From contig JADLGO010000023.1 in assembly GCA_020849275.1 (NCBI GenBank), positions 1 to 64,000 of the forward strand: DNA of 64,000 nt, written 5' to 3'. Made by a program: the position numbers and the translations under genes. The notes beneath the pieces are model-generated. The model was not told the DNA's origin and made no database searches. It saw only the letters and a list, made by a program, of their open reading frames with translations. This DNA is from Chthonomonadales bacterium (lineage in GTDB: Bacteria; Armatimonadota; Chthonomonadetes; Chthonomonadales; CAJBBX01). How positions within the stretch are numbered: position 1 is the first letter of the stretch; each line of letters begins with the position of its first letter. Of this stretch, positions 6,001-25,680 are shown piece after piece.

Positions 6001-8560
6001 GAGAACCCCCCGTACCTGGCGTTGTTTCAATCCTCACCGGCCCCGAAGGGCCGGTGCAACCGCGTCGATCGACTCGGGCGCCGCGTAGCGGTGCCAGGTT
6101 TCAATCCTCACCGGCCCCGAAGGGCCGGTGCAACCTCCCAGGATGCACGCGCAAGGCACACCAGCTCCGTTTCAATCCTCACCGGCCCCGAAGGGCCGGT
6201 GCAACGGGAGCGTCCCCGTACACGGGGGCGCTTGTACGAGAAGTTTCAATCCTCACCGGCCCCGAAGGGCCGGTGCAACATGGCCTCGTACGAGGGCGCG
6301 GCCGCGAGCCTTCGTTTCAATCCTCACCGGCCCCGAAGGGCCGGTGCAACGAGGACGGGCGTCCCGTCCTGGACGCCCGACGCTACGTTTCAATCCTCAC
6401 CGGCCCCGAAGGGCCGGTGCAACAACATAGAGATGATCGGGGGCGTCAACTGCAATACAGTTTCAATCCTCACCGGCCCCGAAGGGCCGGTGCAACAGGG
6501 CGGCGAGCGCGCGCCAGCGCCTTCGGTTCCGTCGTTTCAATCCTCACCGGCCCCGAAGGGCCGGTGCAACCTCCGCCAGCCGGTGGACCACGCCGGATCC
6601 GATGCCGATGTTTCAATCCTCACCGGCCCCGAAGGGCCGGTGCAACTATGGGAGTGCAACCCGATTCTAGCGTGGGAACATGGTTTCAATCCTCACCGGC
6701 CCCGAAGGGCCGGTGCAACCATGGAGGCCTTGGAAGCGCTCCGCCGTGTTCGTCGCGTTTCAATCCTCACCGGCCCCGAAGGGCCGGTGCAACCATGGAG
6801 GCCTTGGAAGCGCTCCGCCGTGTTCGTCGCGTTTCAATCCTCACCGGCCCCGAAGGGCCGGTGCAACTTACGGCCGGCTTCGCGCCACCGGTTCTGCAGC
6901 TCCCGGTTTCAATCCTCACCGGCCCCGAAGGGCCGGTGCAACCGTTCGCGCCATCAAGGCGGTGCTCATCCGCTACATGTTTCAATCCTCACCGGCCCCG
7001 AAGGGCCGGTGCAACTGGCCAAATATTCATGTAGGCGGCGGAATCTATTCGTTTCAATCCTCACCGGCCCCGAAGGGCCGGTGCAACGACAGTCAACGCG
7101 CGTGATGAGTATTACACACAGGACGTTTCAATCCTCACCGGCCCCGAAGGGCCGGTGCAACACCCTGGTCGGCGACGACCAGAGCTACGCCGTAACGCGT
7201 TTCAATCCTCACCGGCCCCGAAGGGCCGGTGCAACTGGCCTGAAACGGCTGTCCGTGGCTGCAGTGCGTCAGGTTTCAATCCTCACCGGCCCCGAAGGGC
7301 CGGTGCAACTTCGACTGGGCGCGCACATTCGGCGAGGAGATGGCCAACGTTTCAATCCTCACCGGCCCCGAAGGGCCGGTGCAACCGCGACGGGCAGACG
7401 GCGAACCCTAAGCACCTGACGTTTCAATCCTCACCGGCCCCGAAGGGCCGGTGCAACGTGGACGACGGGCAGACGGCGACGTGCCGACTGGAGTTTCAAT
7501 CCTCACCGGCCCCGAAGGGCCGGTGCACCGAGGGGGTCGTCACGGACGCGCTTCGCCGCCTGGAGCGGTTTCAATCCTCACCGGCCCCGAAGGGCCGGTG
7601 CAACCATCATGGAGGAGCTCCAGGACGTGCGGACGCTCCCCATGTTTCAATCCTCACCGGCCCCGAAGGGCCGGTGCAACGACCAGTTGTTCCCGCGGTC
7701 GTGGTTGAGGTGATACGTTTCAATCCTCACCGGCCCCGAAGGGCCGGTGCAACCAGCTCCGCACCATCGTATACGCCAACTCGCTCGTCAAGTTTCAATC
7801 CTCACCGGCCCCGAAGGGCCGGTGCACCGGGACATAACCCTCCAACCAAGCCACGTTATCACGCAGTTTCAATCCTCACCGGCCCCGAAGGGCCGGTGCA
7901 ACGGGGCTGGTGTACCGCGTGTACAACGCGACCGCGCAGTTTCAATCCTCACCGGCCCCGAAGGGCCGGTGCAACACGCCCGACCTTGCGATCCGGCATC
8001 CGCGCTGGGCGGTTTCAATCCTCACCGGCCCCGAAGGGCCGGTGCAACCTGCTCAAGGCCGGAGCGCTGGTCTGTCCAGTGGCGTTTCAATCCTCACCGG
8101 CCCCGAAGGGCCGGTGCAACCGGCAGCACGATCGCCTGCTCCGCGACGGGCAGCGACGTTTCAATCCTCACCGGCCCCGAAGGGCCGGTGCAACGTCGGG
8201 ATGAGCGAGGACCAGACGCAAGCCAGGGCCGTTTCAATCCTCACCGGCCCCGAAGGGCCGGTGCAACTTGGAGTAACACAGGGAGCGACTCCCTGGCATC
8301 GAGTTTCAATCCTCACCGGCCCCGAAGGGCCGGTGCAACGCACGCTCCTGACGCTCGGCGATGATTACTGGCTGGTTTCAATCCTCACCGGCCCCGAAGG
8401 GCCGGTGCAACCTGCCCCTCGTACTCATGCGTGCGGCAGGCGAGCAGCCGTTTCAATCCTCACCGGCCCCGAAGGGCCGGTGCAACGCGTGCAGCGGTGG
8501 TCCGACCTGCTTACGCCGGAGAAGTTTCAATCCTCACCGGCCCCGAAGGGCCGGTGCAAC
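1..8560 (-). CRISPR. CRISPR array, 117 repeats, type I-C-like repeat, truncated at window start
   Basis: I located 117 copies of a 37-nt repeat (first at 1, last at 8524-8560) with 116 complete spacers; unit length is 71-76 nt and spacers average about 36-37 nt. On the plus strand each copy begins GTTTCAATCC and ends GGTGCAAC. On the minus strand it begins GTTGCACC, forms a 9-bp stem (CACCGGCCC pairing with GGGCCGGTG) closed by TTCG, and ends AGGATTGAAAC, which is the usual 3' end and so sets transcription leftward. Cas2 and the leader lie on the right, so the newest spacers are near 8524 and the oldest are at or beyond position 1. Ten copies end GTGCACC (73, 147, 872, 1832, 3443, 3663, 4922, 5072, 7493, 7792). 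Copies at 3735, 4255 and 4627 carry other changes. Cleavage at the stem base by Cas5c would leave the 11-nt 5' handle known for type I-C. Confidence 0.99.
6683..6830 (-). repeat. Tandem duplication of one repeat-spacer unit
   Basis: The 37-nt spacers at 6720-6756 and 6794-6830 are identical (both start CATGGAGGCC and end GTTCGTCGC), and the intervening repeat is consensus. The unit of 74 nt has therefore been duplicated in tandem, by recombination between repeats or by double capture of one protospacer. It is the only exact spacer duplication I noticed. Confidence 0.95.
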
Positions 8561-8699
8561 CCCCCCACATGAGCGTGGAATCGGGCCGAATGCCGGGCCC
8601 TCGCCACGGCAGTCGGCCGGCGCAACCCACGTCCCGCGAAGGAGCACGACCGCGAACCCCACGCTCAGCGCGCCAGAGCTTGCGGTTCGCGCACCCCGA
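8561..8699 (-). promoter_or_regulatory. CRISPR leader between cas2 and the first repeat
   Basis: These 139 nt lie between the cas2 stop codon and the leader-proximal repeat. Read on the minus strand they contain GCGAACC and, about 25 nt later, GGTTCGC (plus-strand positions 8684-8690 and 8652-8658). Such GCGAACC-type blocks are often seen in I-C and III leaders. A C6 run (8561-8566) abuts the repeat. I found no convincing -35/-10 pair, so the array may be transcribed by read-through from cas2 or from an unrecognised GC-rich promoter. The leader role is inferred from position and repeat orientation. Confidence 0.75.
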
Positions 8700-8990
8700 T
8701 CATACCACCAGCGGGGCCCGGAAGTCGACGTACCCGTCCCGGCCCCACACCCGCACCACCTCCTCGCGGCGCCCACGGAGCGTGTAGATCCGCAGGCTGT
8801 CCTCGTCCGTGTCGATCAGGCCCACCAGCTTGCGTCGAAACCGCTCGAAGTCCGTATCGGCCAGCGAGCACTCGAACACCGAGTACTGCACCCGCTGGCC
8901 AAACCCCTCGCAGGCCTTCGCCACTTTCCGAAGCCGCCGCCGACCCTCGCGTGTCTCCGTGTTCACGTCGTAGGCCACCACGATGTTCAT
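8700..8990 (-). CDS. cas2: CRISPR-associated endonuclease Cas2
   Basis: A 96-aa protein of normal Cas2 length. It opens MNIVVAYDVNTETREGRRRL, giving the beta-1 strand with the conserved Asp of the ferredoxin-like Cas2 fold, and continues with the usual QYSVFEC strand. Cas2 is the dimeric core of the Cas1-Cas2 integrase that inserts new spacers at the leader end. The ATG lies 10 nt after the cas1 stop and is preceded by GGAGCGGCGA. It is the last cas gene before the leader, the normal I-C arrangement, and must serve both effector modules because no second cas2 is present. Confidence 0.97.
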   Translation of the reverse strand: MNIVVAYDVNTETREGRRRLRKVAKACEGFGQRVQYSVFECSLADTDFERFRRKLVGLIDTDEDSLRIYTLRGRREEVVRVWGRDGYVDFRAPLVV

Positions 8991-9000
8991 TCGCCGCTCC

Positions 9001-10038
9001 TCACTGCCGCGCCACGTAGGGCAGGTACGAGGGCAGGTCGCCGCGCAGGTGCCGCGCCAGCAGCCGCGCCTGCAGGTGCGGGAGCAGCCCCACCGGGGCG
9101 CGCTCCTTCAGAAACGGGTGCACCACCTCCTCCTGCTTGTGCTCCTGGTAGGCGCGCAGCACCAGGCGCCGCCCGTCGTCCGTCATCATCACGCTGCCGC
9201 CCGGCCGCTCCTCGAAGTGCTCGGGGCGCACCTGCCGCCGATTGATGAGCCCGAGCACCACCCGGTCCACAAGCGGCGCGCGAAACTCCTCCATCAGGTC
9301 CAGCGCCAGCGACGGCCGGCCAGGCCGGATGGCGTGCAGGAAGCCCACCTGCGGGTCCAGCCCCACGCCCTCCGCCGCGCCCACGCAGTCCGAGGTCAGG
9401 ATGGCGTAGAGGAACGAGAGCAGCGCGTTCACCCGGTCGCGCGGCGGCCGGCGCGTCCGCGCGCGGAAGGCGAACTCGGCCGGCGGGCGGGAGATGACGT
9501 GGCCGAGCACCGCGAAGTAGAGCGCGGCCGCCTGCCCCTCCACCCCGCGCACCACCTCAAGGCTGTCCGCGCCCGGCAGCGCGGTCAGCAGCACCGCCAT
9601 GGAGGAGCAGGCCTCACGCAGCGCCTCGCGCCCCTCCTCGCTCCGGCAGTCGCGCGCTCCACGCAGCAGCAACGAGCGCCCGTTGCGCAGCTTCGCCGCC
9701 ACCATCGCGCGGGCCACGTCGGCGCACCGGCCCGCGTCCGCCCCGGCCTCGTACTGCGCCGTCCGCAGCAGCACGTTGCCGCCCGTGGGACCGACCACCC
9801 GCGCCTGGAAGCGCCCGGCCCCGTCCAGGAAGGTGATTCCCCGCCCGTCGCGCGCGCAGCGCTCCATCAGCGGCGCCGAGGGCGTGGCCCCGCCGAAGAA
9901 GACGAGCGAGCCCAGATGCAGCAGCGGCGCCTGCAGCAGCCGCTCGCCCTGCGCCTCCACGCGCACCGTGTCACCGTCCAGGCGCGCGTAGGCGCCCGGC
10001 GTCAGCACGAAGAGCGTGTTGAGCAGCTCACGGCTCAT
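9001..10038 (-). CDS. cas1: CRISPR-associated integrase Cas1 (type I-C)
   Basis: A 345-aa protein, the normal length for type I-C Cas1. Its N-terminal beta domain starts MSRELLNTLFVLTPGAYARL. The C-terminal helical catalytic domain carries VNALLSFLYAILTSD, then GLDPQVGFLHAIRPGRPSLA with the metal-binding His, and LDLMEEFR with the acidic ligand. It is the metal-dependent integrase that joins prespacers to the leader-side repeat. The ATG overlaps the stop of the CARF-RelE gene as ATGA (10035-10038), so it is translationally coupled to a type III accessory gene rather than to cas4, its usual I-C neighbour. Starts further upstream would run into that gene, so the ATG at 10038 was chosen. Confidence 0.97.
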   Translation of the reverse strand: MSRELLNTLFVLTPGAYARLDGDTVRVEAQGERLLQAPLLHLGSLVFFGGATPSAPLMERCARDGRGITFLDGAGRFQARVVGPTGGNVLLRTAQYEAGADAGRCADVARAMVAAKLRNGRSLLLRGARDCRSEEGREALREACSSMAVLLTALPGADSLEVVRGVEGQAAALYFAVLGHVISRPPAEFAFRARTRRPPRDRVNALLSFLYAILTSDCVGAAEGVGLDPQVGFLHAIRPGRPSLALDLMEEFRAPLVDRVVLGLINRRQVRPEHFEERPGGSVMMTDDGRRLVLRAYQEHKQEEVVHPFLKERAPVGLLPHLQARLLARHLRGDLPSYLPYVARQ

Positions 10039-11084
10039 GGCCCCTCCCACTCGCTGAAGCGCTCGCCCGGCGCGGGGGCCCGCACCGCCGACCGGCGCTG
10101 CTCGTAGGAGCCGTCGCTGTGGCGCGTCAGGCCGAGTACCCGCACCTCCCCGCCGTCGCCCTCGACCAGGAAGATCCGCTCGTTCGTGTCGCCACGCGGG
10201 TACACGCGCACGCCGCCCGCCCCCACGGTCTCGCACTGGCCGATCCAGAGCTCCCGCGCGCGCAGGCTGGCCAGACGCCGGTCGAAGGCCGCCCGCGTGG
10301 TGGGGTCCAGGGCCTCGTGGTCGCGCCGGGCGGCCTCCGAGAGCAGGACGCGCGCGCGCCCGGCCCGCTCACTTCGCTCCCGGTAGGCCTCCCAGAAGGC
10401 GACGCCCGCCGCGCTCAGGTACTGCCGTCCCTCCTCGGGCTCGTCCACGAGCATCCCCAGCGCCGGGGGCAGCTCCCGCAGCCGCTCGCGCACCTGCCCG
10501 CTCGGCCGCGGCTCCTCCTCGATCCACTGGAAAAAGCCCTCGTGAAGCGCCATCAGGCCCAGGTCCCAGGCCACCGGCAGCGGAGGAAGCTCCACGATCT
10601 GCTGGAAGGTTTCGTAGATGTAGTACACCGGCACCTCCAGCAGCAGGCCCAGCAGCGTGGCGTAGGCGATCTCCGCCTTGAAGCCGCCGGTGGCGTTGAG
10701 AAGCACCTCGCGGCCGTCGTGGCGCTGGCGGCGGACCTCCCCGGCGAGGACCGACACCAGGTCGCGCAGGCCCCGCCGCGCGAACCCCTTCTCGCTGGCC
10801 GTCAGCCCCGGCACCTCCACGCAGCGCGCCCCGACGCCCCGATTGGCGTGGTGCGAGCGCAGGGCCTCCGCCGCCGCGCGGCAGGCGTCGTCGGCGGAGT
10901 GGATGAACACGAGGCGATCGTCGCCGCCGGCCCCCAGCCGGAAGAGGGCGTGCGCCTCCGCGGAGGCCAGGACGGGGTCGGTGTGGGCGAGGAACGCGGC
11001 GAGGCTGGCGGGCGTCGTGGCCTGGCCGGCGCGCTTCGCGTTGCCCGGCAGCGAGGTGCCGACGGTGGAGAGGATGGCCCTCAT
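10035..11084 (-). CDS. CARF-RelE type III CRISPR effector (Cami1-like mRNA interferase)
   Basis: A 349-aa protein. Residues 1 to about 180 are a CARF domain: MRAILSTVGTSL supplies the Rossmann-like first strand and NATGGFKAE (130-138) is the ligand-binding signature of APE2256-type CARF proteins. After a helical linker, residues of about 265-335 look like a RelE toxin core; ERIFLVEGDGGEVRVLGLTR (302-321) followed by HSDGSYEQ matches the last strands of RelE/HigB-like ribosome-dependent mRNA endonucleases. I see no R-X4-6-H HEPN motif. CARF-RelE proteins (Cami1) are known cyclic-oligoadenylate-activated mRNA interferases. The ATG overlaps the preceding CARF-HEPN stop and the stop overlaps the cas1 ATG, both by ATGA. 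The CARF call is strong; the RelE call rests on strand pattern and length. Confidence 0.8.
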   Translation of the reverse strand: MRAILSTVGTSLPGNAKRAGQATTPASLAAFLAHTDPVLASAEAHALFRLGAGGDDRLVFIHSADDACRAAAEALRSHHANRGVGARCVEVPGLTASEKGFARRGLRDLVSVLAGEVRRQRHDGREVLLNATGGFKAEIAYATLLGLLLEVPVYYIYETFQQIVELPPLPVAWDLGLMALHEGFFQWIEEEPRPSGQVRERLRELPPALGMLVDEPEEGRQYLSAAGVAFWEAYRERSERAGRARVLLSEAARRDHEALDPTTRAAFDRRLASLRARELWIGQCETVGAGGVRVYPRGDTNERIFLVEGDGGEVRVLGLTRHSDGSYEQRRSAVRAPAPGERFSEWEGP

Positions 11085-12304
11085 GTCGTTGTCTCCTTTC
11101 GGCCGTAGCGGGCGAGCAGCGGAGCCAGGCTGTTGTACAGCTTGCCTGCCTCTTTCATGATCGTGTCCGTGGTGCGCGCGCTCGCGCGGTACCCGCAGTG
11201 GGCCACGTCGTTGCGCAGGTCGTGGATCCTCTCCCACCAGTCCACGAGCTCCCGCCACTCCTCGTCCTCGAACGTGGGGCAGGCGCGCGCCGGGGGCAAC
11301 GGCCCGGCCTCCCCCGGCTCCTCGGCCCTCGGGCGGCGCGCCGCGACGGCGGCCCCCAGGGCGTGCTCGACCGCGTCGCGGTCGGCGATCCCCGCAGCCT
11401 CGCCGGCCAGCGAGACGGTCCACTCGCGCGCCAGGAGGATGGCCTCCATCGCGCGGTTGCGCTCCGCGTACCACGCCACGAGGCGGCTCGCGCCCTCCAG
11501 GTCCGCTGCGTCCAGCCCCTCGTAGATCCCGCGCAGGGAGGAGCTCGCGGCGGCGAAAGGGGCGGACCGCGCGCTGAGCCCGGCGGGCGCCTCGCCGAGC
11601 AGCCGGAGGGCCTTACCGGCCTCTTCGCGCACCTCGCGCGGACGAGCGACCGCCAGCGCCGCCGAGAGGCGCGCGAGCGACTTGCCTGCGCTCCTGAGCT
11701 CGGGCTCATGGCGGCTATGCCCGGCCGGGCGGTCGTACTCCTTGAGCAGCGCGGTCAGCGGCCGCGCGTCGCCGCCGTCGGCGAGCACGCGGGCGGCGTG
11801 CGTCCAGCCCAGCACGCGCAGGAACGGCGTCAGGTCGAACGTCGGCGACCGGTCGGTCGCCGTGTCGCGCGCCTCGTAGGCGCCGTAGAGCACGTGGCCG
11901 ATCGTCGGCCCGTTGTGGATGGCGCCGAGGAAGGCGGCCGAGAGCAGCGCGACCATCGGGCCGGTGCGGAAGCCGTGCGTCACGTCCAGCGCCAGCGTCT
12001 CGCCATCCGCCGCGCAGTGGCGGATGGCGTCCATCGTGCTCCAGAGCTCGTCCTCCGAGCGGCCGTCGGGGACCTCCACGTCCGCTACCTCCGCGGTGCC
12101 CTCGAGGGCCGCCTGGAGGTCGGCCCAGTTCTCGTTTGCCCGCGCCTTCTCCGTCAGCAGCACGCTCACGCGGCGCGGCTGCAGCCATCGGCACGCGGCC
12201 ACCGGGAAAAGCCGCGCCCGCACGGGCTCGCGCTCGCCCCAGACGTAGGTGGTCTCCTCGTACCTGCCGGTGCCGAGCTGCGTGATGAGATGGTCAACCC
12301 CCAT
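11081..12304 (-). CDS. csx1: CARF-HEPN ribonuclease, Csx1/TM1812 type
   Basis: A 407-aa protein. The N-terminal CARF domain resembles the TM1812 (Csx2) family: it opens MGVDHLITQLGTGRYEETTY, and LALDVTHGFRTGP (104-116) is the D-x-T-H-G-F-R signature. A long helical region follows. The C-terminal HEPN domain holds RNDVAH (364-369), the R-X4-H RNase motif. The expected role is a sequence-nonspecific RNase switched on by cyclic oligoadenylate from Cmr2. The start lies 3 nt after the cmr6 stop and the stop overlaps the CARF-RelE ATG, so it belongs to the cmr transcript. The subfamily name among Csx1/Csx2/Csm6-like proteins is approximate. Confidence 0.88.
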   Translation of the reverse strand: MGVDHLITQLGTGRYEETTYVWGEREPVRARLFPVAACRWLQPRRVSVLLTEKARANENWADLQAALEGTAEVADVEVPDGRSEDELWSTMDAIRHCAADGETLALDVTHGFRTGPMVALLSAAFLGAIHNGPTIGHVLYGAYEARDTATDRSPTFDLTPFLRVLGWTHAARVLADGGDARPLTALLKEYDRPAGHSRHEPELRSAGKSLARLSAALAVARPREVREEAGKALRLLGEAPAGLSARSAPFAAASSSLRGIYEGLDAADLEGASRLVAWYAERNRAMEAILLAREWTVSLAGEAAGIADRDAVEHALGAAVAARRPRAEEPGEAGPLPPARACPTFEDEEWRELVDWWERIHDLRNDVAHCGYRASARTTDTIMKEAGKLYNSLAPLLARYGRKETTT

Positions 12305-12307
12305 GGC

Positions 12308-13330
12308 TCACTCCTCCTCCGTGTACAGGGAGACGATCTCCCATACCTTTCCCCCGCCCGTGACCTCCACGACGAGGCGGGCCACCTTCTTCTTGCCCTT
12401 GAGCGCTTGCCTGGCGGGCTCGGGGAGCTTCTCGAACAGCTCCTGCGCGCGCTTGCCGTGCGCGTGCGCCGTTCTGCCCTGGAAGCTCGCCCTCAGCTCC
12501 CCGCTGCCGGGGTCCCTGCGCACCTCCGTCGCCGGCCAGCGGTCGGGCGGCGGCGGAGCCGCGGGCGGCCGCTCGACGCGGAAACGGCCGTAGCCGGCGT
12601 TGGTCTTGCCCCCCGCGCCCAGGTTCTCCAGCGCCCAGGTCAGCAGGTTGCGGGCGTAGAGAGCCCAGGCTTCGCTCGGGCACTCCAGCGTGAAGAGGAA
12701 GCGCGTTTCGGGCGCCACCACGAGGAAGGGCACGGGCGTGGGGTCGTCGAAGTCGGTGGGCCAGACTCCCTTCCCGCGCGCGCGGTAGTAGTCGCGATGG
12801 TGAACGGTGATGACGTCGCGATGGAACGGCTTCCCCTCGCCCGGTCCGGGGTCGTACCAGGTGTCGAGGTAGGCGATGCGCGCCTGCTGCTCCGTGTCGC
12901 CAAAGAGAGCCACAAACGGCGGGGTGCCGCTCGCGACGCCGGCTCGCGCGGCCGCGCGCCGGCAGAGGCCCTTGATGGCGGAGCCGGGGATGACGGGCAT
13001 CCCGTAGGTGTGGTGGATTGCGAGGCCGACCTCCAGCGGCGTCTCGCCGCCGAGGCCGACGGCGAGGGGCCCGGCGGTGGTCGCCGCGAGCGTGAGCCAC
13101 CCGCGCTCCGCCGCCAGGCCCTTCCAGCGCTCGAGCGCCGCCCGGTAGGCCGGCCCGGCGGCGACGCCCGCCGCGGCCTGGAGCAGCTCCTCCTCGGGCT
13201 TCGGGGCCCGCTCGTTGCGCTCCTGCTCCATCTCCTTGTGCGCGACGAGGTACCGCTGCGTCAGGAGGCCGGCATGGCCGCACTCCTCCCGCGGCAGGTC
13301 GCTCAGCGCGGTTCGGCACGCCGTGCTCAT
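12308..13330 (-). CDS. cmr6: Type III-B RAMP protein Cmr6
   Basis: A 340-aa RAMP-fold protein. The RAMP signature is IHHTYGMPVIPGSAIKGLCR (about residues 115-135), with the usual ITVHHRDYY and TPVPFLVVAPET strands and a glycine-rich AGYGRF segment characteristic of Cmr6. Cmr6 caps the backbone of the Cmr complex near the spacer 3' end. It opens MSTACRTALSDLPREE. The ATG overlaps the cmr5 stop (13327-13330). The C-terminal tail of about 80 residues (FQGRTAHAHGKRAQE onward, Lys-rich KGKKKVARL) is an extension to the RAMP core that I do not recognise. Confidence 0.93.
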   Translation of the reverse strand: MSTACRTALSDLPREECGHAGLLTQRYLVAHKEMEQERNERAPKPEEELLQAAAGVAAGPAYRAALERWKGLAAERGWLTLAATTAGPLAVGLGGETPLEVGLAIHHTYGMPVIPGSAIKGLCRRAAARAGVASGTPPFVALFGDTEQQARIAYLDTWYDPGPGEGKPFHRDVITVHHRDYYRARGKGVWPTDFDDPTPVPFLVVAPETRFLFTLECPSEAWALYARNLLTWALENLGAGGKTNAGYGRFRVERPPAAPPPPDRWPATEVRRDPGSGELRASFQGRTAHAHGKRAQELFEKLPEPARQALKGKKKVARLVVEVTGGGKVWEIVSLYTEEE

Positions 13331-13710
13331 TCGGTCCCCTCCTCCTGCTCCTGCGTGACCTTCAGGATCGAGACGGCGAAGCGCTTGTAGAACACCCAGG
13401 CGGCGAGCACGCGCCGCGTATAGAGCATGTAGGTCCCCACGTCCGCCCTGGCGATCTCGCCGATGTCGACGCCCAGGCAGTCGCGCAGGTCCTCCAGCAC
13501 GCGCTGGTGCGCGCGCGCGAGGTCGCCGGAGCCGCCGGCGGCCTTGGCGGCGCTGAAGGCGACGGCCTGGCAGAGGCCGCAGGTTCGCGCCATCACGGGG
13601 AAGCGATGGCAGAGGACGCCGTACGGGCCCGCCCAGGGCTCGCCCTTGACGGCCGCGACGCGCTCGGCGGCCCTCGCCATGTCTTTCTGCGTCGCCGTCT
13701 GAACGCTCAT
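13327..13710 (-). CDS. cmr5: Type III-B small subunit Cmr5
   Basis: A 127-aa, mostly helical protein of normal Cmr5 length. It opens MSVQTATQKDMARAAERVAA, the expected N-terminal helix, and includes ARTCGLCQAVAF and YMLYTRRVLAAWVFYKRFAV. Cmr5 forms the minor filament of the Cmr complex along the target RNA. It overlaps cmr4 upstream and cmr6 downstream by ATGA, which indicates strict translational coupling and balanced production of subunits. Confidence 0.94.
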   Translation of the reverse strand: MSVQTATQKDMARAAERVAAVKGEPWAGPYGVLCHRFPVMARTCGLCQAVAFSAAKAAGGSGDLARAHQRVLEDLRDCLGVDIGEIARADVGTYMLYTRRVLAAWVFYKRFAVSILKVTQEQEEGTE

Positions 13711-14564
13711 GGCGCCACCGCCAGCCGGCACAGGCCGCGCCCGACGGAGCCATCGCCGCCGACGCGCAGCGGACCATCGGAGCGGATGGCCCCGGCGAGC
13801 GCGGCGCGGCCCTCGCCGCGCCCGGTGTCCGCCAGAAAGCCGCAGAAGAGGGCCTCCGCCGGCACGGCCTCCTCGTACCACAGGCCGCGCTGGCGTACGG
13901 TCTTCTCGTCCTCTTTGAGCGCGACGCGCGCGGCGACCTCCAGGCCGTTCTCGCACAGGAAGTCGAACACGCCGTCGGGCAGGACGGCGAGACGCTCGAC
14001 CAGGCATCCGGCCATCGGCCCGACGAGCGCCGCCGCGCCGATGGCGTCCGCGATCCGCGCGGCGAGCTCGTCGTGCCGCGCGGGCAGGTCCAGGTCCTCC
14101 AGGTAGATTCGGCCGCCCTTGAGCAGCGTCTGGGCGCTGAGCAGGGCGGCCTCGTCGGCGGGCGGGGCCTCGAAGCCGGGGGCGACGCCGAGGGCGTCGG
14201 CGTCGCGCAGGAAGCGACGGAGCGCCAGGCGGGAGGTGACCCAGGCGAAGGTCCCATGGAAGCTGCGCACGGGCAGGAGCAGCAGCCGCATATCGGAGAT
14301 CGTCACGTTCCCGGCGATGCTATCGCGCTTCCCCTCGCCGGTCTCGTCCGGCGCCGGCGGGGCGCCGAAGGCGCGCTCGGCCCACTCCTCGGCGCGGTAG
14401 CGGTCGTGCAGCACGCCCTTGAGGCTGCTGCCGGGAATCACGGGCCAGCCGGTCGCCTTCTCGCGGGCAACCGGCAGGTCCACGATGGAGGACGCCTGTC
14501 CCACGCCGCAGTGCACCGGCGTGAGGGCGTGCAGGTACAGAAGGCTTGCCGTACGGGATCCCAT
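13707..14564 (-). CDS. cmr4: Type III-B backbone RNase Cmr4
   Basis: A 285-aa RAMP protein of the usual Cmr4 length. The N-terminal segment reads LHALTPVHCGVGQASSIVDL, then PVAREKATGWPVIPGSSLKG. The Asp of SSIVDLP (residue 29) matches the catalytic Asp that cuts target RNA at 6-nt intervals in characterised Cmr4 proteins. The ATG at 14564 is preceded at 10 nt by AGGAGG; the in-frame GTG three codons earlier is too close to that ribosome-binding site. It follows cmr3 with a 5-nt gap and overlaps cmr5 by ATGA. The intact Asp implies an active target-RNA slicer. Confidence 0.95.
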   Translation of the reverse strand: MGSRTASLLYLHALTPVHCGVGQASSIVDLPVAREKATGWPVIPGSSLKGVLHDRYRAEEWAERAFGAPPAPDETGEGKRDSIAGNVTISDMRLLLLPVRSFHGTFAWVTSRLALRRFLRDADALGVAPGFEAPPADEAALLSAQTLLKGGRIYLEDLDLPARHDELAARIADAIGAAALVGPMAGCLVERLAVLPDGVFDFLCENGLEVAARVALKEDEKTVRQRGLWYEEAVPAEALFCGFLADTGRGEGRAALAGAIRSDGPLRVGGDGSVGRGLCRLAVAP

Positions 14565-14569
14565 GGATG

Positions 14570-17337: not shown

Positions 17338-18539
17338 GGCTGAGCTCCAATGGAGATCGGCTCCGCGCCCCACCGGAGCTTGATGGCCGCCCTCACGGCG
17401 GCGAGCGGGTCGTTCACCCCGAGGTCGCGGAGCACGGGCTCGTTCGGCGGCACGCGAAGGGAGACGGCGCGGGCCTCCTTCTTCACGCGAACCCCGGCCG
17501 GCGCGGGGGCTCGCAGGGCGAGCACCACGGGCCGGACCTCGCCATCGTCGAAGGCGACCGGCCGGAGGATCACGGGCGAGGCCATCCGCCCGGTCTTCTC
17601 GGACACGATCTCTCCGAAGAACGGGGCGGAGGGGAGCCGTTGGTAGTTCAGCGGGAGCCCGAGGAAGGGCTTGCAGAGCTCCACCGGGTCGTCGGAGGGC
17701 CGCCAGCGAACCAGGGTCTGCCGGTAGTCCGACCACTTGCCTCCGGACATGGGCTCGTAGGAGACGCTCCCGACGTGGCCCTTGCGGAAGGCTGCCCAGA
17801 ACTCGGCGAGCTCGCGCCACGCGTCATTTACCGGTGAGCTCGTTCGGGCGAGCCAGCCGCCGCTGAGCGTGGGGTGTTGCGGAGGGCCCGGGGCCGCCTG
17901 CCCGGCCAGCTCGTCGAGCCACCCGGCGAGGTCGGGCTCACCCGGCGGCGGCGCGAACCTCGCCGGCGGCTCCTCCATGCGGAGCGCCCCGCAGCCGCGC
18001 CGCGTTCGGGCTCCGATTCCCCCGAGCGTCAGCCACGCCTTCAGCGCGCGCCGAACGCCGGCAACGGCGTCGTCGTCCGGATCGCGCAGCGCCACCCCGA
18101 GGGTGAACTCCACGCCCGTCCGCGCCGCCGCCTCCGGGATGCCCGCCTGCTGCGCCTGGAACGGCCAGACGAAGTACCCGATGCCGGGGCCGGTCCCGGG
18201 TCGCGCTCGCCCGGCGATCTGGCCCGCAACCTGCTCCTTGCCGGGCTCCACGTCCGTCACCGTGATCGCTACGCGCCCCGGCGTCCCCGTGTCGCCCCAG
18301 AGGGCGGCCTCGTGCTCGTGCAGCTTCTCCGGCGTGGCGAACGCCCCGCCCGCGGTCGCTCGCCACCAGAAGCGCAGGTGGCCGCGGATGGCGGCCGGAC
18401 GGATGGTGCAGACGCGGTCCACCTCGCGCGTCGCGAACCCCCCGCCGAACATCGCCGTGATCACCTTGACGCGATAGGTGTCCACCCGATCCCCCTCCGG
18501 CTCGCGCCAGTCCGGGGGGTCAACCAGCTTCCGGCTCAT
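17334..18539 (-). CDS. cmr1: Type III-B RAMP protein Cmr1
   Basis: A 401-aa RAMP protein. The N-terminus holds YRVKVITAMFGGGFATREVD and IRPAAIRGHLRFWWRATAGG, the typical Cmr1 signature. RTRRGCGAL near residue 180 is the glycine-rich RAMP loop. The second RAMP half includes FLGLPLNYQ and SPVILRPV. Cmr1 sits at the 3' end of the crRNA in the Cmr complex. Its ATG overlaps the cas4 stop as ATGA (18536-18539), which ties the first cmr gene to the last I-C-specific gene. It overlaps cmr2 by ATGA at the other end. Confidence 0.94.
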   Translation of the reverse strand: MSRKLVDPPDWREPEGDRVDTYRVKVITAMFGGGFATREVDRVCTIRPAAIRGHLRFWWRATAGGAFATPEKLHEHEAALWGDTGTPGRVAITVTDVEPGKEQVAGQIAGRARPGTGPGIGYFVWPFQAQQAGIPEAAARTGVEFTLGVALRDPDDDAVAGVRRALKAWLTLGGIGARTRRGCGALRMEEPPARFAPPPGEPDLAGWLDELAGQAAPGPPQHPTLSGGWLARTSSPVNDAWRELAEFWAAFRKGHVGSVSYEPMSGGKWSDYRQTLVRWRPSDDPVELCKPFLGLPLNYQRLPSAPFFGEIVSEKTGRMASPVILRPVAFDDGEVRPVVLALRAPAPAGVRVKKEARAVSLRVPPNEPVLRDLGVNDPLAAVRAAIKLRWGAEPISIGAQP

Positions 18540-19174
18540 GGCCCCTCCTCGTCGTTCACCTCATACAGGTCGCGCACGTGCCAGTCGAGCCGTGCCTGCG
18601 CCAGCACCTCCGGCACGCAGGCGTCGGCCAGCGAGCAGTTGCGGCAGCGCGCGTCGGCGACGGGCGCCGGAAGCTCGCCGGTTCGGAGCATCGCGCGCAC
18701 GGCCGCCACGCATGTCAGCATGGCGGAACGAAGCGGCTCCGTCAGAAGCACTTCGCGCCGCCGCCGCGTCGAGATGTGGTAGACCGCGCCTGACTCCACG
18801 CGGCGGCCGAGCATCTCCTCCAGGCAGACCGCCTGCGCGCAGAGTTGCAGGTCGTCGTGGATCCTCTGGCGCCGCGGACCATGCTTGTACTCCACGGGAT
18901 AGACCGTTCCGTCGGCCCGGAACTCGACGACATCGGCGCGGCCGATCAGCCCGACGGCGTCGGACCAGACCGGCAGCGCTCGTTCGAGGCGCGCACCGTC
19001 GGCACACTCCCAGCTCACCGTGTCGGCCCGCTCGTGCGCGGCCGCTCCCCGCAGAGTGAAGACGTTGTCATCGAACACCTGCTCCACGTGGATCAGCCCG
19101 CACTGCCGCGGGCAATACGAGTAGTGCTCGATCGCCGATATGGGCACGGCGTCGTCGTCAGCGGTCACAGTCAT
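18536..19174 (-). CDS. cas4: CRISPR-associated exonuclease Cas4
   Basis: A 212-aa RecB-like nuclease. ISAIEHYSYCPRQCGLIHVE gives the first Fe-S cysteine, GRADVVEF and PVEYKHG are the PD-(D/E)XK acidic and Lys residues, and CRNCSLADAC supplies the other three cysteines of the 4Fe-4S cluster. In I-C systems Cas4 trims prespacers and selects those with a PAM. It starts 70 nt after cas7, with AAGGGGG upstream of the ATG, and is coupled to cmr1 downstream. Its normal partner cas1 is displaced by about 8.5 kb. Confidence 0.96.
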   Translation of the reverse strand: MTVTADDDAVPISAIEHYSYCPRQCGLIHVEQVFDDNVFTLRGAAAHERADTVSWECADGARLERALPVWSDAVGLIGRADVVEFRADGTVYPVEYKHGPRRQRIHDDLQLCAQAVCLEEMLGRRVESGAVYHISTRRRREVLLTEPLRSAMLTCVAAVRAMLRTGELPAPVADARCRNCSLADACVPEVLAQARLDWHVRDLYEVNDEEGP

Positions 19175-19244
19175 GGAAGCCCCCTTCGACCGGGACGAGA
19201 CCGGCCGGTCGCATCGCGGCGCCCGGCCGGCCGCCGTCGCGGCG

Positions 19245-20168
19245 CTAGCCGGCGAGCCGGCTCAGCGTAACGCCCCGGGGCATGTCCGCGTCGTCCACCG
19301 TGACCTGGTAGTCCTCGAAGCGGCGCGGCGCCGCCGCGCCCGGCCGCGCCGACACCCCGATGCGCGCGAAGAGCTCGTGGGCGGCGGCACTCCCCAGCGC
19401 GTCCTCGTGCGAGAACACGTAGAGCCCCCGGCAGGCCATCATTCCCCGGCTCGCGGAGCGGTCCAGATCCCACATGCCCAGGAGCGCCTTCCAGAAGAGC
19501 TCCAGGTCCTCTCGCCTGACGCCCGTCTTCCGGGCGAAAGGCGCCGAGTAGAACCCGTGGCCCACGTAGAGGCCATAGGGCACCAGCGGCTTGCTGCCCA
19601 TCTCCGTCCGCTTGCCCTTGCCCCGCGCCTCTTCGCCCGCCTCCACCTCCACCACCTCGGCGTCCTCGGGCTTGGTGATCGCCACGCGCGTGATGCCCAC
19701 GTCCATAGGGAAGACCGGCGACACCGACCGCGCGAACGTGAGCTGGATCGGGCCGCGGACCTGCCCCGCGTTCACGCCGGTGGTCATCACCGCGCCGAAC
19801 ATGCGGATGTCGTAGTAGGTCGCGCACATGCGCTGGCGCACCCTGTCCACGTCCTCGCGCTTCTGCTTGCTGCCGGTCGACTTGATCTTCTCGTCGTCGT
19901 AGGCCCGCTGGTGGAGCGTGTTCAGCGCGAGGCCCTCGTCGTTGACGTAGATGGCGTAGCCGTCCTCGCCCCCGCGCGTCAGCGCGACCATGTTGCGCAC
20001 CTTGCGCTTGAGGCAGACGTCCGTCACAAGGCCCTGCATCGTCTCCGGGTCGACGCGCGGCATGTTGCCGGCGTCGGGGTCGCCGTTGGGATTGCCGTCG
20101 GCCACGTCGAACACCAGCACGAAGTCGTGCCGGCGCTCGGCGTCGGCGCACGCCGTGAAGTCAGGCAT
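19245..20168 (-). CDS. cas7: Type I-C Cascade backbone Cas7 (Csd2)
   Basis: A 307-aa protein. FVLVFDVADGNPNGDPDAGN (residues about 16-35) followed by MPRVDPETMQG is the canonical Csd2/Cas7 motif, and VSPVFPMDVGITRVAI is typical of the family. Cas7 copies form the crRNA-binding backbone of the I-C Cascade. The ATG overlaps the cas8c stop by 8 nt, so the two are coupled. Confidence 0.97.
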   Translation of the reverse strand: MPDFTACADAERRHDFVLVFDVADGNPNGDPDAGNMPRVDPETMQGLVTDVCLKRKVRNMVALTRGGEDGYAIYVNDEGLALNTLHQRAYDDEKIKSTGSKQKREDVDRVRQRMCATYYDIRMFGAVMTTGVNAGQVRGPIQLTFARSVSPVFPMDVGITRVAITKPEDAEVVEVEAGEEARGKGKRTEMGSKPLVPYGLYVGHGFYSAPFARKTGVRREDLELFWKALLGMWDLDRSASRGMMACRGLYVFSHEDALGSAAAHELFARIGVSARPGAAAPRRFEDYQVTVDDADMPRGVTLSRLAG

Positions 20169-21924
20169 CGGTGTCCTCCGTATTGTCGGTGTCGGCCAGC
20201 GCCTCGGCCACCGCCGCGTCCTCCGCCGTCGCGGCGCCGCGAGCGCGGCGCTCCACGGCCTCCTTCGCGGCGAGGCGGTCCGCCGCGCGCTGGTGGTAGT
20301 AGCCGAGTGAGAAGAGGCCCTGCTCGCGCAGGTTCAGCGAGGTGGGAAAGGCCTTCAGCGGCGCCGCGATCTCCGCCAGGCGGTTCTGCAGCGCGTTGTA
20401 GGCCGGCTCGCTCTTCTTGCGGATCTTGGGCAGGTGGGCCTTGTTGGCGTGCGCCAGCAGCACGCCGAACGCGACGGCCGGTGCCGAGGAGGCGGCGCCA
20501 TAGTAGCGGCCCACGATCGTGACGTTCGTCTTGCCCAGGGCGGTGCGCTGCACCGCCTCGAGCTCCGCCAGCAGCCGCCCGCAGAGGTACGCGGGCGCGG
20601 CGCTGGCCTCATCCAGCTCAGCCATCGGTCTGGGTTCCTCCGTCCGGTGCAGGGAGAGCACGGCCTTGATCAGGGCCGCGCGGGGATAGGTAACGCGCCC
20701 CTCGGCGCGGTTGCGCTGCACGGCGCGCTCCAGGAGCGCCATGGGCAGCGGCTCGCGGTGCAGCGCGGCGAGCAGCAGGTCGCGCGGCACCGTGGGGCGC
20801 ATCTCTTTGCGCGCGTCGCGGTAGAGGCTGGCGGCGAGGGGATAGACGCCGAAGAACCGCTCCTCGCGGCCTTCCGGGCTCACCACGCGCTGTGCGTCGA
20901 ACCAGGCGGCCAGGCTCCGGCGGGCCTCGCCCACCGTCGTCGACAGCCAGTCGCGCACGACGGCCCGCCCGGCGCTGCCGGAGAGGGCGAACGCGTGGAA
21001 CGGATCGTCGTCGCGCACCGTCAGGCGGCGCCCGGTGCGCAACGAATCGAGCATGTCGCGGACGCGCGCCTCGTCCGGCATGTCGAGAAGGTCCGCCGTC
21101 TCGTCGTCGGCCCCCTGGCTGGTCCAGAACACGTAGACCAGGCTCTGGCCGAGGGTGATGTGCGTGCGCCTGCCGGCGATGAGGCGGTTGAGCGCCTTGG
21201 TGAAGCGCTCGGCCGCTTCGGCGGAGATCGGCGAGGTTTCGGCCCGCTCGAGCCCGTACGACTCGAACGCTTCGCAGTTCGCCGAGACCAGCGCGACCCC
21301 GCTGCTCTTCCCGCCGGGTACGCCCTTGACCATGCCCGGCATGCTCTGGACGACGGGCCCGAAGCGGCCCGTCACCAGGCACTGGCTCACCATCGCCTGG
21401 CCGGCGGCCGGCTCCGGGCGGGCCGCGCCCGCCCAGAAGTCGCGCACCGCCGGCAGGTCCGCGGGCCACGTATCGCCCACGTGAAAGACGACGAGGTCGG
21501 AGTCGCCCATGTCCTCGGGCAGCGGATGCGTCTCGGGCGACCACGCGTCGAGGAACGCGAGGACGGCGCGCACGGCCGCCTCGCCGGTGTCGTCGACACA
21601 CCGCGCGACCAGGTCACGGAACGCGGCGCGCTTGGCGGCCACGTTCCGGTCGACCCTCGGCGGCGCGGCCGGCTTGCCGAACACGTAGGCGGGCGTGTCG
21701 GCCAGGAGGATCGCGCGCACGCCCGAGGTGCGGCCCACGTAGGGAACGAGCCGATCGATGCCCTTGCGCTTCGCCGCGTCGCCGCCGAGGGACGTGAACC
21801 CCAGGAATCCGCCCGCGTCGTCCAGCTCGACCACCCAGCGGACAGGGCGGCGGTCGTACATGGGCGGCGGGAGCTCCTCGCCAAGGATTGCCGGCGCGTC
21901 CTTATACAACTGCTGCAGGATCAT
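20161..21924 (-). CDS. cas8c: Type I-C large subunit Cas8c (Csd1)
   Basis: A 587-aa protein from the ATG at 21924 (MILQQLYKDAPAILGEELPP), which fits the usual Csd1 start; an ATG four codons upstream is also in frame. Other features are VRWVVELDDAGGFLGF near the N-terminus and the GKSSGVALVSANCEAFESYG segment around residue 200. Cas8c recognises the PAM and provides internal small-subunit copies; I did not try to place the internal start. It overlaps cas5c by 23 nt and cas7 by 8 nt. Confidence 0.95.
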   Translation of the reverse strand: MILQQLYKDAPAILGEELPPPMYDRRPVRWVVELDDAGGFLGFTSLGGDAAKRKGIDRLVPYVGRTSGVRAILLADTPAYVFGKPAAPPRVDRNVAAKRAAFRDLVARCVDDTGEAAVRAVLAFLDAWSPETHPLPEDMGDSDLVVFHVGDTWPADLPAVRDFWAGAARPEPAAGQAMVSQCLVTGRFGPVVQSMPGMVKGVPGGKSSGVALVSANCEAFESYGLERAETSPISAEAAERFTKALNRLIAGRRTHITLGQSLVYVFWTSQGADDETADLLDMPDEARVRDMLDSLRTGRRLTVRDDDPFHAFALSGSAGRAVVRDWLSTTVGEARRSLAAWFDAQRVVSPEGREERFFGVYPLAASLYRDARKEMRPTVPRDLLLAALHREPLPMALLERAVQRNRAEGRVTYPRAALIKAVLSLHRTEEPRPMAELDEASAAPAYLCGRLLAELEAVQRTALGKTNVTIVGRYYGAASSAPAVAFGVLLAHANKAHLPKIRKKSEPAYNALQNRLAEIAAPLKAFPTSLNLREQGLFSLGYYHQRAADRLAAKEAVERRARGAATAEDAAVAEALADTDNTEDTDA

Positions 21925-22561
21925 CGGCTCCCCCATACAGGTCGTCGTAGAGCTCGGGCGGCACGCGCAGCACGCCGCGGTCCAGCCGCGCCTCGAAGAA
22001 GCGCGGCCGGTTGCCGGCGCCGCCGGCTCCGTAGGCGATGTCGAACAGCATGAGGCCCAGGTCGGAGCTCACATCGACGGGCTTCTCCGAACCGTCGACG
22101 GGAGCGAAGTGGGCTGCGAACTCGCGGCAGCCCAGGTACGGCCGGTGGAAGCACTGGCCGTCGCTGACGCGGCGGCGGAACTGGTCGCGGTACTTGGCGG
22201 GGTCGTCCGGCGAGCCGGGCGGGACCCACACGTCGGCGCGGATGACGTACGCGACGTCGCGCAGGCCGAGCGTGTGGCGCTGCGCGCGGTCCTCGCCGAT
22301 GCGCAGGCCGGCGACGCGGGGCGAGGCCCGCGCCGTCACCTCGTTGCGCAGGATGGAGAAGTGCCGGATGCGCTCGAGGACGGCGATCTCGCGGATCTGC
22401 CAGCGCATGGGCTTGTGGAAGCAAATGGCCTCGAGGATGCCGCGGGCTGCCGACGGTGTCGGCACCTCGTAGGACACCCGTTCGACCTTGGCCTCGGGCC
22501 GGGTGAAGCAGGCGTACTCACCCCAGACCTTGACCGCGACAGGCGGGTAGCGTCCGCTCAA
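21902..22561 (-). CDS. cas5c: Type I-C Cas5c, pre-crRNA endoribonuclease
   Basis: A 219-aa protein, normal for Cas5c/Cas5d. VKVWGEYACFTRPEAKVERV and YEVPTPSAARGILEAICFHK are the family motifs. In I-C systems Cas5 replaces Cas6 and cuts each repeat at the base of its hairpin. Here it is the only candidate processing enzyme for both modules. The reading frame has no suitable ATG and starts with TTG at 22561, with GGAAGGAG 9 nt upstream. The start lies 81 nt after the frameshifted gene at 22643. Confidence 0.95.
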   Translation of the reverse strand: MSGRYPPVAVKVWGEYACFTRPEAKVERVSYEVPTPSAARGILEAICFHKPMRWQIREIAVLERIRHFSILRNEVTARASPRVAGLRIGEDRAQRHTLGLRDVAYVIRADVWVPPGSPDDPAKYRDQFRRRVSDGQCFHRPYLGCREFAAHFAPVDGSEKPVDVSSDLGLMLFDIAYGAGGAGNRPRFFEARLDRGVLRVPPELYDDLYGGADDPAAVV

Positions 22562-22642
22562 GGGCGTCTACTCCTTCCTCGGTGTGCGATGCGCGGCGAC
22601 AGGAGGGGAGCGGCGGGCGCCGCGGCCCGCCGCTCCCGGGGG

Positions 22643-23007: not shown

Positions 23008-23263
23008 CTGCTCCTCCTTGCCGTTTCCGGCGGACAGGAGGGCCGTGGTATACTTGGCTGTAGCCCGCGTTCCGACGGCCCTCGTTGGTTCGCGCCGGGG
23101 CAGGTGAGTTGCCGCTCACCTGCCCCTCTCGGCTTCTGCCCGGCGTTCGGGTTCAGCCGAGCCGCTAGCATGTTGCAACGCTCATCGAGCCCGCTCCCGG
23201 CGCCGCCGCTTGTGCGGCGGACGGTGACTGACTCGATGCACCTGTGCCCGCTTCAAACAGGCA
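23008..23263 (-). other. Structured 5' untranslated region of the Cascade/Cmr operon
   Basis: No gene is visible in this stretch. If transcription starts near 23263 it becomes a leader of about 255 nt. It has two perfect stems: 12 bp at 23097-23108 with 23115-23126 (loop 6 nt) and 9 bp at 23038-23046 with 23075-23083. Neither is followed by a U-run, so they do not look like ordinary terminators. They could be a regulatory leader; the function is unknown. Confidence 0.45.
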
Positions 23264-23270
23264 CGCGTCA

Positions 23271-23300
23271 ATTGTACACCGCCGTGCGCCATTATGTCAA
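23271..23300 (-). promoter_or_regulatory. Sigma70-like promoter for the Cascade/Cmr/adaptation operon
   Basis: On the minus strand TTGACA (23300-23295) and TACAAT (23276-23271) are separated by 18 nt. This is close to the bacterial consensus and stands out in such GC-rich DNA. It lies between cas3 and the next gene, so it would drive the nuclease-like gene, cas5c through cas2, and possibly the array, separately from cas3. Confidence 0.7.
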
Positions 23301-23373
23301 CACGTGGATTGAGCCGCGCAGGCAGCATAAACTTGGATGTGCCGCGCTGGGAGCATGAACGGCCTGCGGTTCG

Positions 23374-25680
23374 TCACGGCATCAGATCCGCCGGGTCGCG
23401 GGCGACGGCGCCGCCGATGCCCCGCACCCGGTGGTAGGGCCCGCGCCACACGTAGAGCTCGTCCGGCACCAGCGCCTCGACCAGGGCGCCCTGCGCCTCG
23501 AGGTCGCGGCGATAGACCGATACGGAAAGCGGCTGGATGCGCTGCCAGAGGTCGCGCGTCATGAGCCGGGCTTCCGCCGCGCGGCGGATCGCCGTGATGA
23601 GCGCGTCGAAGCCCTCCTTGTCGAGGGAGGCGTCCGCGCAGCCGGGACGGTGGTAGGGCACGAGCACAGGCACGGTGTCGTTGGCGATCAGGCGCATCCT
23701 GGCGGCGACCTCGGGGAAGTCACCGCGCGCGCGCAGGTCCTGCACACCCTCGCGGTCGAGCCCCGCCGCGCCAAGGCGCTCGTAGAGGTCGGCGAAGTAG
23801 CGCGTCGCCACGTCGGGCGCGTCGAGATCCAGGTCAGGCTGCGCGGCGAGCCGCCTGCGGGCCACTTCGAGCGCTGTGCGGTACTCGCCCGGCGGAACGG
23901 ACCCCTCCTCCGGTTGGAAGACGACGACCTCGCTCTCGCCCCTCTCGCGGCGCCCCTCGCGGTTGCACCGGCCCGCCGCCTGGACGATGCGGTCCAGCGG
24001 GCCCATGGCGCGGTAGGCGAACGGGAAGTCAAGGTCCACGCCGCACTCGATCACCTGCGTCGCGACCAGGAGCACCGGCGGACCGCCGGCCTCTCGCTCC
24101 GCCTTGAGCGCGGCCCCCACCGCCTCGATCACCTGGCGCCGGTGCGAGCCGCACAGCAGTGTCGAGAGGTGGCGCACGTCGCCGCCCAGGGCATCCACCA
24201 CGGCGAGGGCGTCCTTCTTCGTGTTGAGGACCGCGACGCAGGAGCGGTCCCTCGCCCGCATGTGGTCCGCCAGGCGCCGCCAGTCCCACGGGTCCGGCTC
24301 CACGCGATAGGTGACGCGGCGCAGCGCGCGGAAGTGCGAGGCGGCCTCGGGCACGATGGGCACGACCGCCGACAGGCCGCGCAGGTACGGGCTATCGCCC
24401 TCCAGCGCCGGCAGCGTTGCGGTGCAGAGGACGACCGTCGCGCCGTAGTGCTGCACGAGCTCGCGCAGGCCGCTGACGATGGGCGCGAGCAGCGCCGCCG
24501 GCAGCGTCTGGACCTCGTCGAGCACGATCACGCTCTGCGCCAGGTTGTGCAGCTTGCGGCAGCGGGCCGTGCGGTTCGCGAAGAGGCTCTCGAAGAGCTG
24601 GACGGTGGTCGTGACCACGAGAGGCGCGTCCCAGTTCTGGGCCGCCATGCGCCGCGCGCGCTCGCGCTCGTCGTCGTCGGCGCCGCCGGCGCGCGGCTCC
24701 ATCGCGGACTGGTGCTCGAGGATCCCCTCGTCCCCCAGGATGTCTCGGAACACGCCCGCCGTCTGGTCGATGATGCTGGTGTAGGGGATAGCGTAGACGA
24801 TCCGCTCCCGGCGGCGGACCGCGGCGTGCTCCAGCGCGAACGCCAGCGACGAGCGCGTCTTTCCGCCTCCCGTGGGAACCACCAGCGCGAAGAAGCCCGG
24901 ATCGCGGCCGCCCGCCTCGACGCAGGCCTCGTAGACCTCGCGACGGACCCGGTTGACGGCGGAGTCATCGGCGCGCGCGGTCTCGGCGTCCGCGCTGGTC
25001 CGGATCCGGAGGGCCTCGCGCCAGCGCTCGAGGACGTTGCGCAGGGCGAGAGGTGCCCTCGTGGCGGCTTGCGCAGGCCAGAAGTGCCGCTCCGTGTCCA
25101 GGCAGTCCGCGTCGACCAGGCAGGAGAAGAGCCAGCGCGTCCGCATCTCCAGGAACCGCGCCCGCTCGCCCCTCTCCCCGGCAACGGCCTCGATTCCCGG
25201 CACGCCGGCCGGCGGCGGCTGCGAGAGAGCGGTCAGCTTCTCGCGGGCGCGCCGGATGGCGGCGGCGACCTCGGCGCGGCCGTCGGCCTCTGCCAGCGCC
25301 TCTTTCAGCCGGTGGGTGGCGGTCAGGCCGCCGTGGTGCCCCTGAACGCAGGCCGCGATCAGGCCGCGCGGACCCGCGGGCAGCGCCTCCAGCGCGAGCA
25401 CGGCGCCGGCCGCCCGGTGCTCCGCGGAGCCCGGCCGCGGGCCGGGACGTCCGGCCCGCCGCGCCTCGTCGCATCGGTGGAGGTAATCCTGGAAGGCGTC
25501 GGAGAACTTGCCGACGTCGTGAAGCCACCCGCACCAGGCGCCGAGGTCTACGGCGCCGAACGTGGCGGCGAAGCCGGCGGCAAGGTCCGCGACGGCCTGG
25601 GCGTGTTGGCTCAGGCCGTGCCACCGCCGGGGCTCGGCGTCGGGCGGCGTGTGGGCATAGTACTCGCGCCGATCGCTCAT
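23374..25680 (-). CDS. cas3: Cas3 nuclease-helicase (HD domain fused to SF2 helicase)
   Basis: A 768-aa protein. The N-terminal HD nuclease has GLSQHAQAV, WLHDVGKFSDAF and VQGHHGGL (residues about 20-140). The helicase has Walker A VVPTGGGKTRSSLAF, DEVQ box VIVLDEVQTLPA, SAT-like LCTATLP, and QVIECGVDLDFPFAYR plus QAAGRCNREGRR for motifs V and VI. Cas3 is recruited by the I-C Cascade and degrades target DNA. The ATG at 25680 has AGGAG 5 nt upstream. It is the first gene of the locus and is separated from the rest by a 366-nt gap that holds a strong promoter. Confidence 0.97.
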   Translation of the reverse strand: MSDRREYYAHTPPDAEPRRWHGLSQHAQAVADLAAGFAATFGAVDLGAWCGWLHDVGKFSDAFQDYLHRCDEARRAGRPGPRPGSAEHRAAGAVLALEALPAGPRGLIAACVQGHHGGLTATHRLKEALAEADGRAEVAAAIRRAREKLTALSQPPPAGVPGIEAVAGERGERARFLEMRTRWLFSCLVDADCLDTERHFWPAQAATRAPLALRNVLERWREALRIRTSADAETARADDSAVNRVRREVYEACVEAGGRDPGFFALVVPTGGGKTRSSLAFALEHAAVRRRERIVYAIPYTSIIDQTAGVFRDILGDEGILEHQSAMEPRAGGADDDERERARRMAAQNWDAPLVVTTTVQLFESLFANRTARCRKLHNLAQSVIVLDEVQTLPAALLAPIVSGLRELVQHYGATVVLCTATLPALEGDSPYLRGLSAVVPIVPEAASHFRALRRVTYRVEPDPWDWRRLADHMRARDRSCVAVLNTKKDALAVVDALGGDVRHLSTLLCGSHRRQVIEAVGAALKAEREAGGPPVLLVATQVIECGVDLDFPFAYRAMGPLDRIVQAAGRCNREGRRERGESEVVVFQPEEGSVPPGEYRTALEVARRRLAAQPDLDLDAPDVATRYFADLYERLGAAGLDREGVQDLRARGDFPEVAARMRLIANDTVPVLVPYHRPGCADASLDKEGFDALITAIRRAAEARLMTRDLWQRIQPLSVSVYRRDLEAQGALVEALVPDELYVWRGPYHRVRGIGGAVARDPADLMP

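Follow-up and report, generated by a model that had tools for sequence, protein, structure and literature searches.

A type III-B CRISPR module nested in a type I-C operon of a Chthonomonadales bacterium, with one array that probably serves both effector complexes

The DNA analysed, here called the window, is a stretch of 64,000 nt from the genome of an uncultured bacterium that by kinship belongs to Armatimonadota, order Chthonomonadales. Its CRISPR genes are all coded on the minus strand, in the order cas3-cas5c-cas8c-cas7c-cas4-[cmr1-6, Csx1, Cami1]-cas1-cas2, and are followed by an array of 117 repeats. The sequence-only reading had placed a complete III-B module within an I-C operon, and each gene it named was found, intact and in the order claimed. 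Of the span it gave, 8524-25680, the gene content stands; the start does not, as position 8524 falls in the CRISPR array and cas2 ends at 8700. Profile E-values of the named genes range from 5e-5 for Cmr5 (6.6e-21 with Pfam) to 6.6e-142 for Cas1c, so the matches are not due to chance.

The I-C part opens with cas3 (23374..25680), which codes for an HD nuclease and helicase of 768 aa (TIGR01587, TIGR01596) with the motifs HDVGK, GGGKT (Walker A), and DEVQ. The presumed crRNA-processing nuclease cas5c (21902..22561; TIGR01876, 145 bits) has an uncertain TTG start and is followed by cas8c/csd1 (20161..21936; TIGR01863, 342 bits), cas7c/csd2 (19245..20168; TIGR02589, 311 bits), and cas4 (18536..19174; TIGR00372), the product of which has the expected cysteines and a RecB motif, EYKHG. 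Beyond the insert lie cas1 of I-C type (9001..10038; TIGR03640, 473 bits) and cas2 (8700..8990; TIGR01573). The set of cas3, cas5c, cas8c, and cas7c with cas4-cas1-cas2, and with no cas6, is that of type I-C, and adaptation genes of I-C type are the only ones in the composite operon. The insert between cas4 and cas1 is 8.5 kb long, and the uninterrupted order cas7-cas4-cas1-cas2 is absent in the window. In the gap between cas3 and cas5c (22562-23373), a possibly frame-shifted small ORF ends at 22643, downstream of the promoter described below; it had no family match, and no significant similarity to the gaps in relatives.

The insert encodes all six III-B proteins, including Cas10/Cmr2 with its palm domain: cmr1 (17334..18539; TIGR01894, PF03787), cmr2/cas10 (15787..17337; TIGR02577, PF22335), cmr3 (14570..15790; TIGR01888, E 2.5e-28), cmr4 (13707..14564; TIGR02580), cmr5 (13327..13710; PF09701, E 6.6e-21), and cmr6 (12308..13330; TIGR01898). 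Cmr2 is 516 aa long and has the cyclase motif GGDD at residue 328; no HD nuclease was found in it, and the protein starts at the Cmr2_N domain. The catalytic Asp region of Cmr4 is DLPVAR at residue 29. Two CARF effectors follow. The first is a Csx1-type CARF-HEPN ribonuclease (11081..12304; PADLOC CARF_HEPN, E 3.9e-79) with the motifs DVTHG and RNDVAH. The second is Cami1, or CARF-RelE (10035..11084; PADLOC CARF7-CARF_RelE, E 1.5e-100), which matched PDB 8phb/8phj by sequence. Its structural model is confident (mean pLDDT 87), has both the CARF and the RelE fold, and resembles Cami1 first and RelE toxins as well. All active-site motifs checked are intact, and by their sequences the parts look functional. 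Csx1 and Cami1 are a known pairing, recorded in 54 loci, and the Cami1 family is activated by cA4 and cleaves mRNA in a ribosome-dependent manner (PMC11229360). A search of viral contigs for an effector found none.

Both outer junctions of the insert, cas4/cmr1 (18536-18539) and Cami1/cas1 (10035-10038), are ATGA overlaps as previously described, and so are five of the seven inner ones; a 5-nt gap separates cmr3 from cmr4 and a 3-nt gap cmr6 from csx1. The proposal of one fused, translationally coupled unit holds as far as the genes are tightly packed and co-directional, but coupling is incomplete in the I-C part, with gaps of 812 nt from cas3 to cas5c and 70 nt from cas7 to cas4. The tetranucleotide distance of the insert is 0.081, slightly beyond that of neighbouring host DNA (at most 0.067 for host pieces of 8.5 kb), and the make-up of the I-C effector part is inside the host range. 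The argument that the overlaps speak against a recent insertion was not upheld, as near-identical 24-nt copies lie at both outer junctions and can be read as a trace of recombination, and as the junctions of a related locus, in Chthonomonas sp. bin-3721, are gapped. The left copy, GGAGGGGCCATGAGCCGGAAGCTG (cas4/cmr1, 18525..18548, minus strand), differs by two mismatches from the right one, GGAGGGGCCATGAGCCGTGAGCTG (cami1/cas1, 10024..10047, minus strand). With up to three mismatches allowed, these are the only two sites in the genome (4.8 Mb; control 0), and GGAGGNNNNATGAGC occurs in it just five times. As cmr1 and cas1 have similar starts, the repeat may be the mark of a recombination between these; independent similarity is also possible, and Cas1 of the window's group also begins with MSR. 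A target duplication was considered as well and demoted to a possibility, because MSR-type starts are also present in Cmr1 of relatives outside such junctions. The repeat is absent in the bin-3721 locus.

The array (1..8560, minus strand) consists of 117 repeats GTTGCACCGGCCCTTCGGGGCCGGTGAGGATTGAAAC with spacers of 34-40 nt and extends past the contig end; its leader is at 8561..8699 on the same strand. Folded, the repeat has a 9-bp hairpin and, after it, the 11-nt tail AGGATTGAAAC; a hairpin with an 11-nt 3' tail ending in ATTGAAAC is characteristic of I-C repeats. Such a hairpin and tail form the shape known to be processed by Cas5c, and ATTGAAAC at the 3' end is similar to the 8-nt tag used by Cmr complexes. 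The Thermus I-C repeat differs from that of the window in the loop only (PMC6452258). Ten of the 117 repeats, scattered through the array, carry one common variant (GGTGCACC... in place of GTTGCACC...). In the window, the two final spacers of the array (window 1-190) recur as spacers 24 and 25 of 29 in an array piece on contig C61 (L174, 46000-56965), the 23 preceding spacers of which are absent from the window array; either two versions of the array coexist in the population, or the end of the array was duplicated. None of the 116 spacers in the window matched any of 50,697 phages, and for spacers of relatives the 16-mer matches were dispersed and pointed to no convincing protospacer.

A promoter scan over 18 kb recognized two sites where 0.3 were expected. 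The sole strong match, a sigma-70-like promoter TTGACA-18-TACAAT with 11 of 12 consensus positions (23271..23300, minus strand), lies upstream of cas5c, and a weak promoter-like site on the same strand lies ahead of the array, where cas2 ends (8728-8699). Terminator-like sites in the 18-kb region were no more frequent than in shuffled sequences. The positions of the predicted promoters would fit a single transcript from cas5c to cas2.

Cas6 is a usual, though not universal, companion of III-B. It was not found in the window genome with PF10040, TIGR01877, and PF01881, nor in the bin-3721 genome with PF10040 and TIGR01877, while among 16 Armatimonadota genomes with III-B elsewhere it was detected in 14 and undetected in the other two. 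Our own estimate for nested loci versus III-B elsewhere is a Fisher p of about 0.04, uncorrected for kinship and based on only two nested genomes, both drafts; a tie between Cas6 absence and nesting is thus suggestive. The nested III-B module has neither processing nor memory genes of its own and probably borrows those of the host operon.

Gene-order searches and tree comparisons, as the sequence-only reading had proposed, revealed that the nesting is not singular but recurrent. Among 13 I-C loci of Armatimonadota, including that of the window, cas4 adjoins cas1 in 11, and cmr genes lie between them in the window and in bin-3721 (L016/L079). The latter comes from an unrelated assembly and has the same order and the same cas4/cas1 insertion point; the arrangement is therefore stable and not the misassembly that had been named as a possible refutation. 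Its cas4-cas1-cas2 and Cmr2-4 are related to those of the window, but the I-C effector is of a different clade, cmr1 is of another group, and the junctions have gaps. It has one CARF-RelE effector (Cami1) of another subfamily, and no Csx1 was found, whereas the window has both. In a contig of Planctomycetaceae (L119), cmr is between cas4 and cas1 beside a diverged I-C-like effector; there, in the region 1153-4860, Cas5c and Cas7 are below the cutoff and an unrecognised 717-aa protein is in the place of Cas8. Seven draft loci of Thermaceae have the order cas7-[cmr1-6 + effectors]-cas4-cas1-cas2, with the insert one gene earlier, and the same arrangement, annotated gene by gene, is present in a closed plasmid, pMESIL01 of Allomeiothermus silvanus. 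The Thermaceae I-C/III-B loci considered are L093-L096, L099-L101, and L175. As in the window, cmr1-6 are inside a complete I-C operon, in most cases with Csx1 and/or Cami1 (L095 had no match to either), and the array repeats end in GGATTGAAAC where they were read; unlike in the window, the insertion point is cas7/cas4, the Cmr proteins are of another lineage, and no insert splits the adaptation genes. An IS3-like element is inserted between Csx1 and Cami1 in the composite operon of A. silvanus (L175, 16890-18013). In Thermus caliditerrae, cmr is placed after cas2.

The locus is probably a composite I-C/III-B immune operon in which one array serves both complexes. Cas4, Cas1, and Cas2 would insert spacers into the single array, and Cas5c would cleave its transcript at the hairpin base of the repeats, giving crRNAs with the 5' handle AGGAUUGAAAC; the handle expected of crRNAs from a I-C array is AGGAUUGAAAC or AUUGAAAC. 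Loaded into the I-C complex (Cas5c-Cas8c-Cas7c with Cas3), these crRNAs would direct the destruction of PAM-adjacent DNA, and loaded into the Cmr complex, the same crRNAs would recognise transcripts with no need of a PAM. Because Cmr2 is without an HD nuclease and its cyclase motif is intact, the III-B arm would act by cutting target RNA with Cmr4 and by making cyclic oligoadenylate, which would activate Csx1, an RNase, and Cami1, with ribosome-dependent mRNA cleavage. The III-B arm would then be a second line of defence against phages escaping I-C.

One precedent is Marinomonas mediterranea, where III-B counters PAM escape with I-F crRNAs and requires the processing enzyme of I-F, a PAM-independent backup with type I crRNAs as proposed here; there, however, the systems are in two separate loci and III-B owns adaptation and processing genes (PMC5576922). 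In the III-B/I-F hybrids of Marinomonas MWYL1 and Vibrio, a III-B effector is likewise combined with the array and processing enzyme of a type I system, but just cas6f and the array are kept of type I, while in the window the I-C effector is complete and the adaptation genes are present as well (PMC5576922, PMC6360697). Where type III arrays have no adaptation genes to themselves, 95% of clusters show type I PAMs (PMC8482600), and hybrid loci of the CCTyper style are a recognised class (PMC11229360). No description of the I-C/III-B nesting was found in the literature searched; the novel element is a complete I-C system that encloses III-B, recurs, and is without detectable Cas6 in two Armatimonadota genomes. 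Spacer sharing between types I and III has so far been deduced mostly from separate loci that co-occur. Here both effectors belong to the same operon, built around a single adaptation module and a single array, and the processing enzyme of III-B is missing; sharing thereby becomes a direct prediction, which is testable in cultured Thermaceae.

The III-B genes could instead be mere neighbours that landed in the I-C operon and use its promoter and adaptation genes, while their crRNAs come from elsewhere or the complex rarely acts, so that linkage would not mean function. It is common for III-B modules to have no adaptation genes, and many Armatimonadota genomes contain stand-alone cmr1-6-csx1 loci; we nevertheless regard such an explanation as unlikely, given that no Cas6 was detected in the genome, the repeat beside the operon is of I-C type, such a union has formed repeatedly, in lineages far apart, and the checked active-site motifs are all intact. 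A chimeric contig joining two loci might be suspected in a draft genome of 73 contigs, but it is extremely improbable: it would need two misjoins, both of them falling right on a start codon that has an ATGA overlap, and the same order is present in an unrelated assembly and a closely similar one in a closed plasmid.

How the composite operon with a shared array came about is a separate matter. In the cas4-cas1-cas2 tree, the window and bin-3721 form a clade with locus L017 (support 98/95), which has no insert, so that loss or independent gain must be assumed; the window and bin-3721 alone as a pair are not rejected (AU p 0.286). They are sisters in Cmr2 and Cmr3 (SH-aLRT 100 and 97; 79 for Cmr4), in concatenated Cmr2-3-4-6 (support 100), and with all six Cmr proteins (92/97), while the placement of cmr6 is not resolved. 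Their I-C effector genes fall into two clades far apart in the tree, the joining of which is rejected (AU p=2.6e-46), and the CARF effectors of the two loci are not closest to one another. The Cmr core and the adaptation genes therefore seem to travel together, the rest being exchanged: cas4-[cmr core]-cas1-cas2 would have stayed a unit, and what was swapped would be cmr1, the CARF effectors, and the upstream I-C effector genes. That the window and bin-3721 gained cmr at cas4/cas1 separately, the adaptation module being a favoured landing place, is a rather unlikely history, and is compatible with the shared-array mechanism. It agrees with the different cmr1 and effector lineages, with a junction repeat in the window only, and with the clearly separate nestings of Thermaceae and Planctomycetaceae, but not with Cmr2-4 and cas4-cas1-cas2 both pairing the two loci. 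As the Cmr proteins of Thermaceae form a separate clade, there were at least two origins of the nesting, with L119 suggesting one more. It is quite improbable that cas4-[cmr]-cas1-cas2 is a lasting unit tying III-B sensing to spacer acquisition, for example with Cmr steering or boosting Cas4-Cas1-Cas2, and with the I-C effectors as exchangeable attachments. The locus shows that the Cmr core and adaptation genes can stay joined while the DNA-cutting module is replaced. The cmr1 tree departs from those of cmr2-4, with the window and bin-3721 (L016, 7614-8660) in two cmr1 groups and the Thermaceae loci L093 and L101 also split; from these sequences, cmr1 seems to have been exchanged on its own.
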